From Iphinoe sp. HA4291-MV1 (GTDB taxonomy: Bacteria; Cyanobacteriota; Cyanobacteriia; Cyanobacteriales; Nostocaceae), in NCBI GenBank assembly GCA_019359415.1, contig JAHHHH010000017.1, forward strand, positions 1-64,000: a DNA stretch of 64,000 nt, given 5' to 3'. The number at the start of each line of letters is the position of its first letter. Position 1 is the first letter of the stretch. The position numbers were made by a program, and so were the translations under genes. Positions 16,263 to 23,573 of this stretch are shown in pieces. The notes under the pieces are model-generated. The model made no database searches, was not told the DNA's origin, and saw only the letters and a list, made by a program, of their open reading frames with translations.

Positions 16263-18785
16263 ATGAATAGGTTGGTAGTTTTAAGCTTAGGTCAAGGGAA
16301 TCTATACGAAGGTTTTCCCGTTGTAACAGCATATATTGGGGAAGCGGACAACCCCTATCGGATGAAATTTAGTGCTAGCTTACCATCTGCACCAAAAATT
16401 CCTGAAATCTACCACAGATGGCAATCACTTTATTCTGCTTTTTATCATCGTCCATTTTTACGTGTTGGTGTAGAAGAAATTGACGAAATTGACGATACTT
16501 TTGAAATAGAAGAGGCTTGCATCACTAACATTTCTCAAGTAGAGATTAAGGATTTATGCGAGCAACTCTACAACTATTTAAATCTATGGTTGAATTCAGT
16601 AGAACTTCGCAAGATTGAACAGCAATTACGCACACATTTAAAACCATCCGAAGAAATTTGCTTTATTATTGAGACCAACGACAACTTACTACGACGATTA
16701 CCTTGGCATTTGTGGAATTTCTTTGATGATTATCCTCTAGCAGAAGTCGCCTTGAGTACGTCGGAGTATCAACAACCGCACAGGTTTCCTAAAACTAAAA
16801 AAGATAAAATCAGAATACTAGCAATATTTGGTAATAGTTACGAAATTGATATTAGTCAGGATAGAATTTTTTTAGAGAAGTTATCTACTGGTGCAGAAAT
16901 TAAATTTTTAGTAGAGCCAAATCTAGACGAACTCAATGACCAGCTTTGGCAACACAGTTGGGATATTCTCTTTTTTGCTGGTCATAGTAGTTATAGTCAA
17001 GAAAAAGGTTGCTTGCAACTTAATCAAAAAGACGTAGTTACTCTTGATCAATTCAAGTATGGTCTTAAGCAAGCTATAAGTCGTGGATTATGTTTGGCAA
17101 TTTTTAACTCTTGTGATGGCTTGGGATTGGCACAGCAGCTACAGGAATTGTACATTCCGCAAGTTATTGTAATGCGCGAGTCAGTGCCAAACGTAGTAGC
17201 TCAAGAATTTTTAAAGCATTTTCTCGCTGAATTTTCACAAGGACAGTCTTTATATACTGCGGTACGTTCTGCACGAGAAAGACTGCAAGGATTGGAGGGA
17301 GAATATCCCTGCGCGACTTGGTTACCCGTTATTTGCCAAAATCCTGCTGAACCGCCGATGGTTTGGGATAAGTCGTGTCAAACTGAACATGTATATAATG
17401 TAGACTCTTTAGTGGCGGTTTCTGAAACACAACAGCCTTCTCACTTTTACCGAAGCCATACTTTCTCCACAATAGCAAAGCAGAACCTGTTAGATAGACA
17501 TCGCTTTGGAGTTACAGCCACCCGTCATCTGTTAACCGTACTGCTAACAAGTTTGTTGATAGCCACTAGTATTATAGGAGTGCGCCATTTAGGGATACTG
17601 CAACCTTGGGAACTGCATTCTTATGACTATTTAATGCATCTGCGACCAGCAAATGAAAAGCCAGATCCGCGCCTATTAATAGTTACTATTGATGAGGCGG
17701 ATATTCAGTATCAAATCCACAAGCAGATGAATATGCGTTGGTCATTATCAGACCAAGCACTCAGTCAACTTTTACAAAAACTAGAGCAATATCAACCAGC
17801 AACTATTGGTATAGATATTTATCGTGATTTCCCCGTTGATCCTAATTATCCAGAGTTAGGCGAAGTCTTGCAGCAAGACAAGCGCATATTTACAGTTTGC
17901 AAAGTTTCTGCTCCTAATGATGGTGTACCTGATGGTGTTCCTCCTCCTTCTAAAGTCCCAAGAGAACGCATTAGTTTTAGTGATTTTGTGGAGGACTCAG
18001 ATAATGTTCTTCGTCGCCAACTTGTGCAATTAACTCCTCCTTTGGAATCTCCTTGTACAGTAGAATATGCTTTCAGCTTTCAGCTCGCACAGTACTACCT
18101 AAATGCGCAAAACATAAAATGGGATATTAATCAAGAGAAGAATTTGCAAATAGGTAACACTATTTTTCAGCGCTTACAATCCCACACAAGTGGCTACCAA
18201 GGAGTGGATGCATCGGGATATCAAATCCTACTCAATTATCGTTCTTTGCCCTCTCTTCTTAATATTGCCCAAAAAATCTCTCTCAAAGAGGTTCTTAATA
18301 ACGAGATTGTTCCTGAATTATTGCAGAAGTTGGTGAAGAATCGCATCGTCCTCATTGGTGTGACCGCCTCTAGTTCTCCTGATGATTGGAAAACTCCATA
18401 TACTGCAAAAGCTCCAGATACAGAAAAGCAAATCTCAGGCGTGTTTTTACAGGCGCAGATGGTGAGCCATATTCTCAGTGCTGTTTTGAATGGTAGACCT
18501 CTGTTGTGGTGGTGGTCTGAATGGTTGGAAGTGCTGTGGGTATGGGGTTGGGCGTTGCTAGGAGGTATTTTATCTTGGCGAATTCTACAGCCACTTCATA
18601 TAGGATTAGCGATCGCCATAGCGCTGTTCATACTTTTTAGTATCTGCTTTAGTATATTTACTCAAGCAGGGTGGATTCCATTTGTCCCCTCAACATTGGC
18701 ATTAGTGTCTTGTGCGGCTGTGTTGAAGATACTACCGCATCTCCATGCGAGCAACACCCAAAAACGTTGGAACTCTCGAATATGA
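16263..18785 (+). CDS. CHAT-CHASE2 transmembrane protein
   Basis: An 840-residue protein. Residues about 1-370 form an N-terminal region with a CHAT caspase-like domain carrying the putative dyad His241 (FFAGHSSY) and Cys284 (IFNSCDGLGLA). A transmembrane helix at about 421-441 leads into an extracytoplasmic CHASE2 sensor domain (LRPANEKPDPRLLIVTIDEADI; TIGIDIYRDFPVDP; VLIGVTASSSPDDWKTPY), followed by two or three C-terminal membrane helices (about 750-835). CHASE2 normally senses an external ligand; here the output is a possible protease rather than a kinase. The stop overlaps the next start as ATGA, so the genes are translationally coupled. Confidence 0.88.
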   Translation: MNRLVVLSLGQGNLYEGFPVVTAYIGEADNPYRMKFSASLPSAPKIPEIYHRWQSLYSAFYHRPFLRVGVEEIDEIDDTFEIEEACITNISQVEIKDLCEQLYNYLNLWLNSVELRKIEQQLRTHLKPSEEICFIIETNDNLLRRLPWHLWNFFDDYPLAEVALSTSEYQQPHRFPKTKKDKIRILAIFGNSYEIDISQDRIFLEKLSTGAEIKFLVEPNLDELNDQLWQHSWDILFFAGHSSYSQEKGCLQLNQKDVVTLDQFKYGLKQAISRGLCLAIFNSCDGLGLAQQLQELYIPQVIVMRESVPNVVAQEFLKHFLAEFSQGQSLYTAVRSARERLQGLEGEYPCATWLPVICQNPAEPPMVWDKSCQTEHVYNVDSLVAVSETQQPSHFYRSHTFSTIAKQNLLDRHRFGVTATRHLLTVLLTSLLIATSIIGVRHLGILQPWELHSYDYLMHLRPANEKPDPRLLIVTIDEADIQYQIHKQMNMRWSLSDQALSQLLQKLEQYQPATIGIDIYRDFPVDPNYPELGEVLQQDKRIFTVCKVSAPNDGVPDGVPPPSKVPRERISFSDFVEDSDNVLRRQLVQLTPPLESPCTVEYAFSFQLAQYYLNAQNIKWDINQEKNLQIGNTIFQRLQSHTSGYQGVDASGYQILLNYRSLPSLLNIAQKISLKEVLNNEIVPELLQKLVKNRIVLIGVTASSSPDDWKTPYTAKAPDTEKQISGVFLQAQMVSHILSAVLNGRPLLWWWSEWLEVLWVWGWALLGGILSWRILQPLHIGLAIAIALFILFSICFSIFTQAGWIPFVPSTLALVSCAAVLKILPHLHASNTQKRWNSRI

Positions 18786-19585
18786 GCAAAAATAAGTTAC
18801 CTCAAAGACACTATCAACTAGCTTGTGTTATCCCTTTGCTAGTTATTGGACTTGTGAATGACCCACTAAAAGTGCAAGCAAACCCAGAACAATCATTCCA
18901 GAACAGAATAACTCACACACCAAACCTTTTTGCCCAAAAATTTCCTGATAATGGCGATCCCAAAGGTCGTCGCCGAACAGGGACAAGCCGCCGTGATGGA
19001 TGTCCACAACTAAAAACACCCATCACTGCTTTAGTACCTGGTGAAGAAAAGAACAACAAATCGTTCTTGGGATTAACAGTTGCTGAGTATCCAACTTTTT
19101 GGGTTTATGTTCCAGAATTACCTACCAATTTGCGTTCTGGAGAATTTGTATTGCAGGATGAACAAGGTAATGATATCTACCGAACTTCTTTGAAATTGCC
19201 CTCAAAAACAGGTACTATAGGCATTAGTTTACCGTCACGTTCACAATATGCTCTCAAACAAAACTCAAAATATCACTGGTTCTTCCGAGTTTATTGTAGC
19301 GACTCAAAAAACAAATCAGAGTATTTTTTTGTGGACGCATGGCTTTTACGGGTGGCGCTGACTCCCAACCTTCAGCAGCAGTTAAAGACTAAAAAATCAG
19401 GGGAGTACAAGGTCTATGCTGCCAATAATCTTTGGTACGATGCCATAACAAATTTAGCACAACTCCGTCGCACTCATTCAGACATGAGCACGTTGGCTGA
19501 AGATTGGACGAACTTGTTTAAAGCTGTTGACTTGGAAGAACTTGCGTCAGCACCCATCTTGCAACTTGACAATCTACAGCAGTAA
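18782..19585 (+). CDS. DUF928 secreted protein
   Basis: The ATG at 18782 overlaps the CHAT-CHASE2 stop (ATGA) and begins a signal peptide (PQRHYQLACVIPLLVIGLV, cleavage near VQANP), so it is preferred over the longer frame inside the upstream gene. The 267-residue product has the DUF928 core: DGCPQLKTPITALVP, TFWVYVPELP, a beta sandwich with YHWFFRVYC and a C-terminal helical WYDAITNLAQLRR part. DUF928 proteins are cyanobacterial, periplasmic and uncharacterised. Coupling to a CHASE2 protein suggests a shared envelope function. Confidence 0.85.
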   Translation: MSKNKLPQRHYQLACVIPLLVIGLVNDPLKVQANPEQSFQNRITHTPNLFAQKFPDNGDPKGRRRTGTSRRDGCPQLKTPITALVPGEEKNNKSFLGLTVAEYPTFWVYVPELPTNLRSGEFVLQDEQGNDIYRTSLKLPSKTGTIGISLPSRSQYALKQNSKYHWFFRVYCSDSKNKSEYFFVDAWLLRVALTPNLQQQLKTKKSGEYKVYAANNLWYDAITNLAQLRRTHSDMSTLAEDWTNLFKAVDLEELASAPILQLDNLQQ

Positions 19586-20493: not shown

Positions 20494-23400
20494 ATGAAGG
20501 GTAAATTAATTATATTTGAAGGAGTAGAAGGTTGCGGTAAAGTGCGATTCGTTGGCTAGAAACCACAATCCGTAAGGATTTGGAGGATTAGCCGCAAGGT
20601 TTAGAACCTTCTCCCAAAGGGAGAGGCTTCGCCAAGACAACTGAATGACCATGTAGGTGAGAGTCCTACCCCGCAGGTGCAGTGGTGAAAGCACTTCCCC
20701 CAGGTTCGAGACTAGCCATCAACGCCGGAAGCGGGGATGAAAAGCGAAAGTACTGAAAGCCTAATCCTTCAGTACCCGTTGAGCAAAGTACTCATGAGTA
20801 AAGCAATAGCTTGAAGACGTGTCTGAATCGTCGTTAAACCTAATCAGCGAAATAAGGCTGATACGCTGAAGCCAAAAGGCAAAGGATAAGGAGTTGGCAG
20901 TTTTTGCCTTGACCAACCTGCACTTCCAATAAACCCGGCGAATAGCGTCACTCTAAAGGTACATAGTATGGTCATTCGGAACGAAGTAACCTCTCGTATG
21001 TTCTCAGGAAAGGTCGATTTTCTGAGTAGGTGCTAACCGGATACTACGAGCAGGAAAGATTGAGTCAGAAGCGAAAGCCTGGGGTAATGCCCAGGATATG
21101 CAGACAGATTCACGGTGATTTGGAAGATAAAGTCTCAAGTAAAGGGTTAAAATGTCTAAGACGAGTTTAAAGACTACGGTGGAATGGCACAAGATTAACT
21201 GGCGAAAGCTAGAGCGTCGGGTGTATAAGCTCCAAAAGAGAATTTATCAAGCCTCTAAGCGTGGTGATGTAAAAACATTTCGCAGACTCCAAAAGCTGTT
21301 AATGAAGTCCTGGTACGCCAAGGCTTTAGCGGTACGTAGAGTTACTCAGGATAATCAAGGCAAAAATACGGCAGGCGTGGATGGTGATAAATCACTGACC
21401 CCAAATCAACGTTTTGAATTAACTTGTAAAATGCACCTGGGTACAAAGGTCAACCCTACTAGGCGAGTATGGATTCCAAAACCTGGTAAGGAAGAAAAAC
21501 GACCTTTGGAAATACCTACAATGAACGACCGCGCCTTGCAAGCACTTGTCAAGATGGCTCTTGAGCCAGAATGGGAAGCACGATTTGAACCTAACTCATA
21601 CGGGTTTAGACCAGGACGCTCATGTCATGATGCTGTTGAAGCAATCTATAAAGCAATTAGATTAAAACCCAAGTTCGTCTTGGATGCCGACATTGCCAAA
21701 TGCTTTGACCGCATCGACCATAAAGCACTGCTAAGAAAATTAAACACCTTCCCTAGCCTACGTCGACAAATTCGTGCATGGCTAAAAGCAGGTGTAATAG
21801 ATGGAGAGCAGTTGTTTCCAACATCTGTAGACGCAGCAGCGGCTTCGGGCAGGGTGGGAACGCCGCAAGGCGGAGTCATCTCCCCATTATTGGCAAATAT
21901 AGCCCTCTACGGGATGGAAGAACGAATTAAACAATTTGCCGAAACGCTAGATATGAAAAATACCTACGGACGGCAACAAAGCAAAAAGGACAAACGAAGC
22001 TCTTTAAGCCTAATTCGTTACGCCGATGACTTCGTGATTCTTCATGAAGACATAACCGTAGTCCAAAGATGCCGAGAAGTTATCTCAGAATGGTTACAAG
22101 ACATGGGTTTGGAATTAAAGCCGAGCAAAACGAGACTAACTCATACCTTAAACAAGTATCAGGAGGAAAAGCCAGGATTTGACTTTCTTGGCTTCAACAT
22201 ACGGCAATTCACGGTAGGGAAAACACACTCTAACCTTGGCTTTAAAACAATCATTACCCCTAGCAAGGAAAAGCAAAAGGTACATTATGACCACATCGCT
22301 AGTATTATCGAAACCCATAAATCAGCACCTCAAGAGGCACTGATTAATAAACTAAATCCGATTATTAGGAGATGGGCAAATTACTATGCGACCGTAGTCA
22401 GCAAAGATACTTATTCGGAAATTGACAACCTCATGTACCTTAAGCTCAGAGCTTGGGCAAACCGCCGACATCTAAAGAAAAGTGCGGAATGGGTACTCAA
22501 AAAATACTGGTTACCCATAGGCAGCTTTAGTTGGGTTTTCGCAACCAAGAAAGGGGAGGAATTCTATCGCCTACTCAGACATGACAGCACCCCAATTGTC
22601 CGTCATACTAAAGTTCAAGGCGAAGCATCCCCATACGATGGAAACCTAGTTTACTGGAGTACAAGAATGGGAAATAACCCAGAAATGCCAACCAGGATAA
22701 CAAAACTCCTGAAAAAGCAAAAAGGGAAATGTGCCCATTGCGAATTATACTTCCGCGAAAGCGATGTGCTGGAAGTTGACCATATTATCCCAAAATCGCA
22801 AGGTGGAAAGGATGATTACAACAATCGTCAACTCCTACACAGGCATTGCCACGATAGCAAGACTGCCAACGATGGTAGTCCCAGGTGTGTATGACAAGCG
22901 CCAAGTCACTGAGGAGCCGGATGAAGCGAAAGTTTCACGTCCGGTTTTGAAGACCAGTGGAATTGGTGACAATTTCGCTGAGTTTAATACTAGCCAAATA
23001 CAGCTAACGCAAGATTGGTTACAAAGTTTTCAGACTTCTGTAGTTGTGACTCAAGAACCCGGGGGAACAGAGTTAGGGTTGCGTTTGCGAAAACTGTTGT
23101 TGGAAGCAGGCTCTAACTCGATCACGGATAAAACAGAATTACTTTTGTTCGCCGCTGACCGATCGCAACACGTTGAGCAAGTTATCAAGCCGAGCCTCAA
23201 AGACGGGGCGATTGTTTTGTGCGATCGCTACATTCACTCTACCATTGCCTACCAAGGCTGGGGACGTGGTTTAGACATAAATTTAATTCATCAGCTAAAT
23301 ATCATTGCTACCTCCGGGTTAGAGAGTGACCTAACTCTGTGGTTTGATGTTGATGTTGAGGTAGGACTTGCTCGAAAACGAGGAGGCGGCGATATACTCG

Positions 23401-23573
23401 ACCGCCTTGAAAAAGAGACAATCACCTTTCATCGTCGCGTCCAGCAAGGATATGCACACTTAGCTAAGTCCAACCCAGAGCGAATTGTTCGTGTAGATGC
23501 GGAGCTTAGTCAGGAAGCTGTACAACAAAAGGTTCAGGAAATTTTAACTGCTAAGCTGAAAGCTTGGAGTTGA
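20494..23573 (+). CDS. tmk: Thymidylate kinase, interrupted by a group II intron
   Basis: Exon 1 (20494-20541) encodes 16 residues, MKGKLIIFEGVEGCGK, ending with the P-loop lysine. Exon 2 (22989-23573) resumes with ACT AGC CAA (TSQ) and encodes 194 residues including TQEPGGTELG, the DRYIHSTIAYQGWGRGLD nucleotide-binding segment and a normal C terminus. Spliced product: 210 residues, the usual Tmk length, phosphorylating dTMP to dTDP for DNA synthesis. The join restores the frame exactly. Without splicing translation would add only VRFVG before TAG. A second tmk elsewhere in the genome cannot be excluded. Confidence 0.93.
21152..22894 (+). CDS. ltrA: Group II intron-encoded reverse transcriptase/maturase with HNH endonuclease
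   Basis: A 580-residue LtrA-like multifunctional protein. RT blocks are clear: SYGFRPGRSCHDAV, LDADIAKCFDRIDH, GTPQGGVISPLLANI and catalytic RYADDFVIL. Domain X (maturase) follows around residues 390-480 (LNPIIRRWANYYA; LRAWANRRH). The C terminus is an HNH endonuclease: CAHCELYFRESDVLEVDHIIP and LLHRHCHDSKT with zinc-binding Cys pairs. It binds its intron RNA to promote splicing and supports retrohoming. The frame is complete, ending just before domain V. Confidence 0.95.
   Translation: MSKTSLKTTVEWHKINWRKLERRVYKLQKRIYQASKRGDVKTFRRLQKLLMKSWYAKALAVRRVTQDNQGKNTAGVDGDKSLTPNQRFELTCKMHLGTKVNPTRRVWIPKPGKEEKRPLEIPTMNDRALQALVKMALEPEWEARFEPNSYGFRPGRSCHDAVEAIYKAIRLKPKFVLDADIAKCFDRIDHKALLRKLNTFPSLRRQIRAWLKAGVIDGEQLFPTSVDAAAASGRVGTPQGGVISPLLANIALYGMEERIKQFAETLDMKNTYGRQQSKKDKRSSLSLIRYADDFVILHEDITVVQRCREVISEWLQDMGLELKPSKTRLTHTLNKYQEEKPGFDFLGFNIRQFTVGKTHSNLGFKTIITPSKEKQKVHYDHIASIIETHKSAPQEALINKLNPIIRRWANYYATVVSKDTYSEIDNLMYLKLRAWANRRHLKKSAEWVLKKYWLPIGSFSWVFATKKGEEFYRLLRHDSTPIVRHTKVQGEASPYDGNLVYWSTRMGNNPEMPTRITKLLKKQKGKCAHCELYFRESDVLEVDHIIPKSQGGKDDYNNRQLLHRHCHDSKTANDGSPRCV
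22914..22947 (+). ncRNA. Group II intron domain V
   Basis: A 34-nt hairpin: GAGCCGGATGAAGC, GAAA tetraloop, then GTTTCACGTCCGGTTT. It carries the AGC catalytic triad at 22915-22917 and the two-base bulge region. This is the catalytic core of the ribozyme and looks undamaged. Confidence 0.9.

Follow-up and report, generated by a model that had tools for sequence, protein, structure and literature searches.

The gene for thymidylate kinase (tmk) of Iphinoe sp. HA4291-MV1 is split exactly after the P-loop lysine by a group II intron of 2447 nucleotides. It lies on the forward strand of the window, by which we mean the whole 64,000-nucleotide stretch analyzed (positions 1 to 64,000 of contig JAHHHH010000017.1), as do the parts of tmk and of the intron described below. 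Exon 1 (20494..20541, reading MKGKLIIFEGVEGCGK) has 16 codons and ends in EGVEGCGK, the last residue being the P-loop lysine; exon 2 (22989..23573) has 194 codons plus a stop, opens with ACT AGC CAA (T S Q) and begins TSQIQ. Joined in frame, the exons give 633 bases encoding a dTMP kinase of 210 amino acids plus stop, with no internal stop codon, and they rebuild GCGK-TS at the split point that the initial annotation had proposed. Exon 2 by itself scores above the dTMP kinase equivalog cut-off (TIGR00041, 165.7 bits versus 83.25). Translation of the unjoined gene bears out the early stop also claimed there, because exon 1 runs on through five intron codons (VRFVG) into a TAG at 20557..20559. 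From the other side, exon 2 is preceded by 92 open intron codons in its frame (the range is 28-44 among the four other tmk introns described below, hence 28-92 across the five), so a protein lacking the P-loop could conceivably arise without splicing; the corresponding open frame, 22731-23573, encodes 280 amino acids and passes from the 3' part of the intron straight through exon 2. Upstream of tmk, at 16263-19585, lie two overlapping genes, one for a CHASE2-CHAT protein and one of the DUF928 family.

Comparison with intron-less relatives, which the initial annotation had recommended, reveals the empty site in all seven other genomes of the genus: six carry the uninterrupted sequence GGTAAA|ACTAGTCAA (in full, GGTAAAACTAGTCAAATACAG) and the seventh a one-base variant of it, and each of the eight genus genomes, HA4291-MV1 included, has one match to the Tmk family PF02223. 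Because the empty site is visible in every congener, both ends of the intron are fixed (20542..22988): it starts with GTGCGATTC at 20542 and finishes with TTTAAT at 22988, in agreement with the 5' GUGYG and 3' AY of group II introns and with the GTGCG start and AY end first read from this sequence. Domains V and VI (22912..22988) match Rfam RF00029 at 54.5 bits (gathering score 40, E 6e-08) over model positions 1-77 of 77, and the stretch 22908-22988 folds at -35.2 kcal/mol (z -6.7), a stability that none of 200 shuffles equaled, in keeping with the intact domain V first described. The likely branch point is the A at 22981, bulged in domain VI by eye; the minimum free energy fold draws that stem slightly differently. 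The intron-encoded protein (IEP; 21152..22894, 580 amino acids) contains, by profile search, the RVT_N, reverse transcriptase (RT; RVT_1, with YADD), maturase (X; GIIM) and HNH domains expected of it, and lies above the NCBIfam group_II_RT_mat cut-off (311.6 versus 300). On these features the element belongs to group IIB and encodes an RT-maturase-HNH protein, from which we infer splicing and mobility; its cyanobacterial host and its 5' end, the two features by which it was compared, fit subclass CL2B.

Calling the intron complete was right, with two qualifications. Directly before the RT motif GTPQGG, the HA4291-MV1 copy has ten in-frame codons, VDAAAASGRV (21827..21856), as against a single codon in each of the four other tmk introns; this may weaken its reverse transcription. 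These codons were considered as a dispersed repeat, a candidate that we rejected when a genome search allowing up to three mismatches matched the intron copy only. Domain I does contain a dispersed repeat of 34 bases (20607..20640), which has near-copies at five other places in the HA4291-MV1 genome (91-94% identical over about 31-34 bases) and is shared by none of the four other tmk introns. In the copy of one of these, Nostoc sp. ATCC 43529 (L054), the IEP has YADE instead of the catalytic YADD as well as an extra RT stretch, HGSRYNEGNPRNALPP; its maturase may still be able to splice, although reverse transcription is perhaps hardly possible. The IEP dN/dS among the four closely related copies is still 0.13-0.23. 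In the homing-cycle model of mobile introns, invasion is followed by fixation and decay, and splicing can outlive mobility; if the ten-codon stretch, the domain I repeat and the YADE motif are taken as signs of decay, they fit such a cycle.

To locate the guide sequences, we took 14 introns from nine sites (five introns in tmk, two in ribonucleotide reductase and seven elsewhere), aligned the 640 bases at their 5' ends and compared, for each well-filled column, the pairing with cognate exons to the pairing with the exons of the other introns. Introns whose two ends were not both confident stayed outside the scan (L057-L059, L066, L067, L070, L071-L075, L079, L080, L082 and L084), as did the copies L061, L076, L078 and L083; L062 was retained despite the unusual length that follows from its 3' end (3421 nt). 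For the last six bases of exon 1, the best window, taken as EBS1, is at intron positions 362-367 (mean 4.5 of 6 pairs with cognate versus 2.5 with non-cognate exons), a gain of 1.99 against 0.74 for the next window. For exon 1 bases -13 to -9, the best window, taken as EBS2, is at 296-300 (4.1 versus 1.6 of 5; gain 2.47, next 0.87), and the best column for EBS3 is 402 (Watson-Crick in 13 of 14 introns and G-U in one, versus 10 and 1 for the next column). All three pairings form in the HA4291-MV1 tmk intron: EBS2 (AACCT, 20837..20841) pairs with IBS2 (AGGTT, 20529..20533) in five of five Watson-Crick pairs, EBS1 (TTTGCC, 20903..20908) with IBS1 (GGTAAA, 20536..20541) in six pairs (five Watson-Crick and one G-U), and EBS3 (T, 20943) with the A at 22989, the first base of exon 2. 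The pairing is less perfect elsewhere. EBS1 of the ATCC 43529 intron and EBS2 of the tmk introns of Calothrix brevissima NIES-22, Nostoc sp. T09 and Richelia sp. UBA3308 each contain a single mismatch, which counts against the reading favored below; the EBS1 window scores 1-2 of 6 in L056, L081 and L069 (a stretch two bases further on, picked by eye, pairs at 5 of 6 in L056 and L081), and EBS2 is weak in L062 (2.5 of 5) and in L056 and L081 (3 of 5). In NIES-22 both sides of the EBS1-IBS1 pairing have changed, to exon GGAAAG and EBS1 TTTTCC from GGTAAA and TTTGCC. A conserved GTAACC of domain I was also considered as an exon-binding sequence and dropped because it hardly varies between introns that occupy different sites (it stands in 13 of 14 rows, and L069 reads GTAATCC).

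The arrangement recurs. A pattern consisting of the P-loop of tmk followed by GTGYG, which is blind to tmk introns with other ends or at other sites, was found in 5 of 218 genomes of the family (5 of the 207 good genomes) and in 4 of 56 genera; a wider pattern was found in 1 of 291 genomes drawn evenly from the order, this one being HA4291-MV1 itself. The other bearers are Calothrix brevissima NIES-22 (G309), Nostoc sp. T09 (G314), Nostoc sp. ATCC 43529 (G401) and Richelia sp. UBA3308 (G455). Domains V and VI are present in all four, and in each of the five bearers the exons join in frame to a full Tmk, the single PF02223 match of that genome. With the wider pattern, the genome_contigs set yielded 19 matches, four of which are tmk with the same intron; the other 15 show, by eye, neither the Tmk start nor the intron start seen here. 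Rfam was run on 13 of the 19 loci, including 9 of those 15, and gave no group II match in these 9. Among viral contigs there were four pattern matches, three with frames open throughout the 30 codons shown past the junction and a fourth (L111) without Tmk context, and a megablast search of plasmids and phages returned no match to the tmk intron. In the IEP tree a branch supported at 100/99 separates the five tmk-site copies from 16 proteins of other sites, which came from a search of 60 genomes (E up to 1e-200); this tree left out L060 and L061 (the same as HA4291-MV1 and T09), L067, L070, L072, L076, L079, L080 and L083. Beyond the single case described initially, the tmk-site intron thus is, by these sequence comparisons, a recurrent, site-specific lineage found across genera.

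Whether the cell could do without the interrupted gene depends in part on how many such genes there are. The initial annotation had made dTTP synthesis dependent on splicing unless another tmk exists, and our search for a second intact copy found one PF02223 match in the HA4291-MV1 assembly, which is 95.35% complete, and no DNMK-type kinase (PF21448) in the same assembly, the same model matching in 1 of 14 genomes as a control. Across the family, at least one PF02223 match was present in 209 of 210 genomes, and more than one was listed in 14 of 210, as counted from the table. The odd tmk cases were inspected in 12 family genomes; G356 has no PF02223 match. The tmk of G472 (L099), tried as a further intron case, reads instead as a stop or frameshift: in the sole PF02223 match of that assembly, TAG comes early, past profile position 143, and the cause is apparently a shift of frame. 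In G325 (L100, L105) the match comes in two pieces of one frame and is about 25 residues longer than usual, and in G323 (L097), a genome of the same genus, it is about 21 residues longer; G306 (L079) has a possible second P-loop insertion. The dN/dS of tmk between HA4291-MV1 and its seven intronless congeners is 0.155-0.255, as compared with 0.129-0.248 when those seven are paired among themselves (21 pairs), indicating that the gene is under purifying selection. By this measure the HA4291-MV1 tmk very probably works, in which case the intron must leave the RNA. Since one PF02223 match and no DNMK match were detected in the 95.35%-complete assembly, the functional dTMP kinase of this strain very probably depends on splicing of the intron, and the claim about dTTP synthesis stands in that inferred form.

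It is also conceivable that the insertion inactivated tmk and that the strain is kept alive by a different dTMP kinase or, its chromosome being polyploid, by alleles free of the intron. The completeness of 95.35% leaves some room for the former, and polyploidy has been suggested (PMC8919778) to let group II introns enter essential cyanobacterial genes. We regard this as improbable, given the single kinase match, the conserved exons whose joined frame has no internal stop, and the same arrangement in 5 of 218 family genomes, each with a full in-frame Tmk as its one PF02223 match.

The history of the intron differs from that of its host gene. Among HA4291-MV1, NIES-22, T09 and ATCC 43529, the introns are 92.4-96.4% identical (about 92% for the latter three versus HA4291-MV1), whereas the codon-aligned tmk genes are 64.9-77.9% identical (65-70% for HA4291-MV1 versus the other three). 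In comparisons of HA4291-MV1 with these three strains, the dS of the IEP is 0.29-0.33, that of tmk ranges from 1.0 to saturated, and that of pyruvate kinase, a control gene taken from the window, is 1.14-1.67; the element is therefore younger than the host divergence for HA4291-MV1 with each of the three, and not so for UBA3308. Because introns that are 92% identical sit in tmk genes that are 65-70% identical, the intron evidently spread horizontally among these four of the five bearers. The tmk dS of HA4291-MV1 versus its congeners (0.34-0.49) is slightly above the intron divergence among the four close bearers, which fits an arrival after HA4291-MV1 split from the other members of the genus. 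On a Tmk tree of 21 rows, the bearer label needs four changes, at least two of them forced by well-supported forks; counting against this result, half of the inner branches (9 of 18) are open, and a number of changes as low as this is reached by 162 of 500 label shuffles.

Vertical inheritance from a common ancestor of the genera, with many losses, would account for the single clade formed by the five tmk introns, and it suits the copy in UBA3308, which is about 73% identical to the other tmk introns and as diverged as the host genes. That copy could be old, because its IEP pS of 0.75-0.79 compares with a pyruvate kinase pS of 0.66-0.69 and does not point to a recent transfer; it may go back either to old inheritance or to a transfer long ago. 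As an account of the whole distribution we find vertical inheritance quite improbable: it is contradicted for HA4291-MV1 versus NIES-22, T09 and ATCC 43529, with four introns 92-96% identical against tmk genes at 65-78% and a pyruvate kinase dS of 0.66-1.67, and the intron is absent from all seven other congeners.

The intron also evidently moved alone, as in retrohoming, and without its host gene, because both the Tmk tree and the exon identities tie the HA4291-MV1 gene to its congeners. Its Tmk groups with the seven congeners at 100/100; exon 1 shares 45-47 of its 48 bases with theirs, as compared with 38-42 shared with the three close bearers and 43 with UBA3308; and over the first 120 bases of exon 2, ungapped, 99-106 are identical to congeners and 70-83 to bearers. 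Transfer of the whole intron-bearing tmk by homologous recombination is consequently highly improbable, for although codon 18 is AGC in HA4291-MV1 and in three of the four other bearers but AGT in all seven congeners, a one-base difference that a very short conversion tract could explain, AGC also occurs in the intronless genomes G042 and G465, and the tree and both exons (exon 1 at 38-43 of 48 to the four bearers) side with the congeners.

We therefore favor, with a probability of roughly 0.9, the reading that a mobile group IIB intron lineage dedicated to the P-loop codons of tmk in Nostoc-like cyanobacteria retrohomed into the only detected tmk of HA4291-MV1 and left the kinase dependent on splicing. 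It builds on the junction, the empty site, the guide pairing, the one detected tmk, the selection on it, the single clade and the spread among four of five bearers, all of which can be read directly from the DNA. Group II introns insert and splice by an established mechanism, and in the present case EBS1, EBS2 and EBS3 would recognize exon 1 bases -13 to -9 and -6 to -1 together with the first base of exon 2. Insertion would proceed by reverse splicing into this site, cleavage of the other strand by the HNH domain and reverse transcription. After transcription, the intron RNA, aided by its maturase, would remove itself and rejoin GCGK-TS, and it is on this step that a functional dTMP kinase would depend.

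A related group II intron of 2685 nt with one 674-codon open frame lies elsewhere in the same genome (G000:C30:46372-49056; L056 872-3557). It interrupts, after MMDLAMMGC, a gene that we take from this motif to be a ribonucleotide reductase, so that two enzymes of dNTP supply would be intron-split in HA4291-MV1; G300 (L081) has an intron with the same flanks. That the two introns together form a splicing-controlled brake on dNTP supply is a speculation that we hold to be very doubtful; if it were true, the synthesis of dTTP and of dNTPs would be adjusted jointly by splicing efficiency, itself set by temperature, magnesium or the level of maturase. One intron of G363 is present three times (L063, L076 and L083), with the same protein score each time; the copies follow similar LDLGL-like coding sequences, possibly of transposase genes, and may reflect recent retrohoming into a repeated gene family.

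Mobile elements in a highly conserved nucleotide-binding motif are familiar from the inteins in P-loops, which are placed similarly to the tmk intron but are spliced as protein, whereas the intron would be spliced as RNA. Trichodesmium erythraeum reportedly carries introns in protein genes that include ribonucleotide reductase and ThyX (work ascribed to Liu et al. 2003 and Liu & Yang 2004), and its ribonucleotide reductase gene is said, by the title of the former, to hold four inteins and three introns. The tmk case resembles these in that a nucleotide-synthesis gene is split and its function would need splicing; it differs, besides gene and genus, in having one ORF-bearing intron, at the P-loop, that recurs in four genera with horizontal spread. 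According to PMC4649490, in vivo splicing is documented for 17 group II introns of Trichodesmium; this source also cites, by title, the introns of ribonucleotide reductase and ThyX genes. It places Tr.e.I7, the host intron of the Trichodesmium twintron, in subgroup B2, in part because its 5' end reads GUGCGAUUC; these nine bases also begin the tmk intron, but the gene of Tr.e.I7 is described as intron-free outside Trichodesmium, whereas the tmk intron has crossed genera. The CL/CL2 introns of cyanobacteria (PMC4424553 and PMC8919778) share with it the host group, an RT-X-En protein and, sometimes, a location in housekeeping genes.

The initial annotation considered mobile introns in the P-loop of an essential gene to be rarely reported. 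For tmk this holds, in that we found no report of a group II intron in thymidylate kinase, which is weak evidence because the search covered open-access papers only, and the word thymidylate occurs 0 times in the accessible part of a review of splicing in cyanobacteria and microalgae (PMC12702839), but group II introns are known in other cyanobacterial housekeeping genes. The tmk-site intron is a new and well-resolved case, with introns in cyanobacterial ribonucleotide reductase and ThyX already on record, and its spread is more interesting than its position alone. It offers a clear natural example of a retroelement in bacteria that targets one of the most conserved stretches of a needed gene. 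Mutation of the target is held in check, good splicing is required of the element, and relatives both with and without the intron exist; the homing cycle (invasion, fixation, decay, loss and re-invasion) and the price paid for splicing in an essential gene thereby become directly testable, and the intron-bearing genome of Calothrix brevissima NIES-22 is an example of a system in which they could be addressed.
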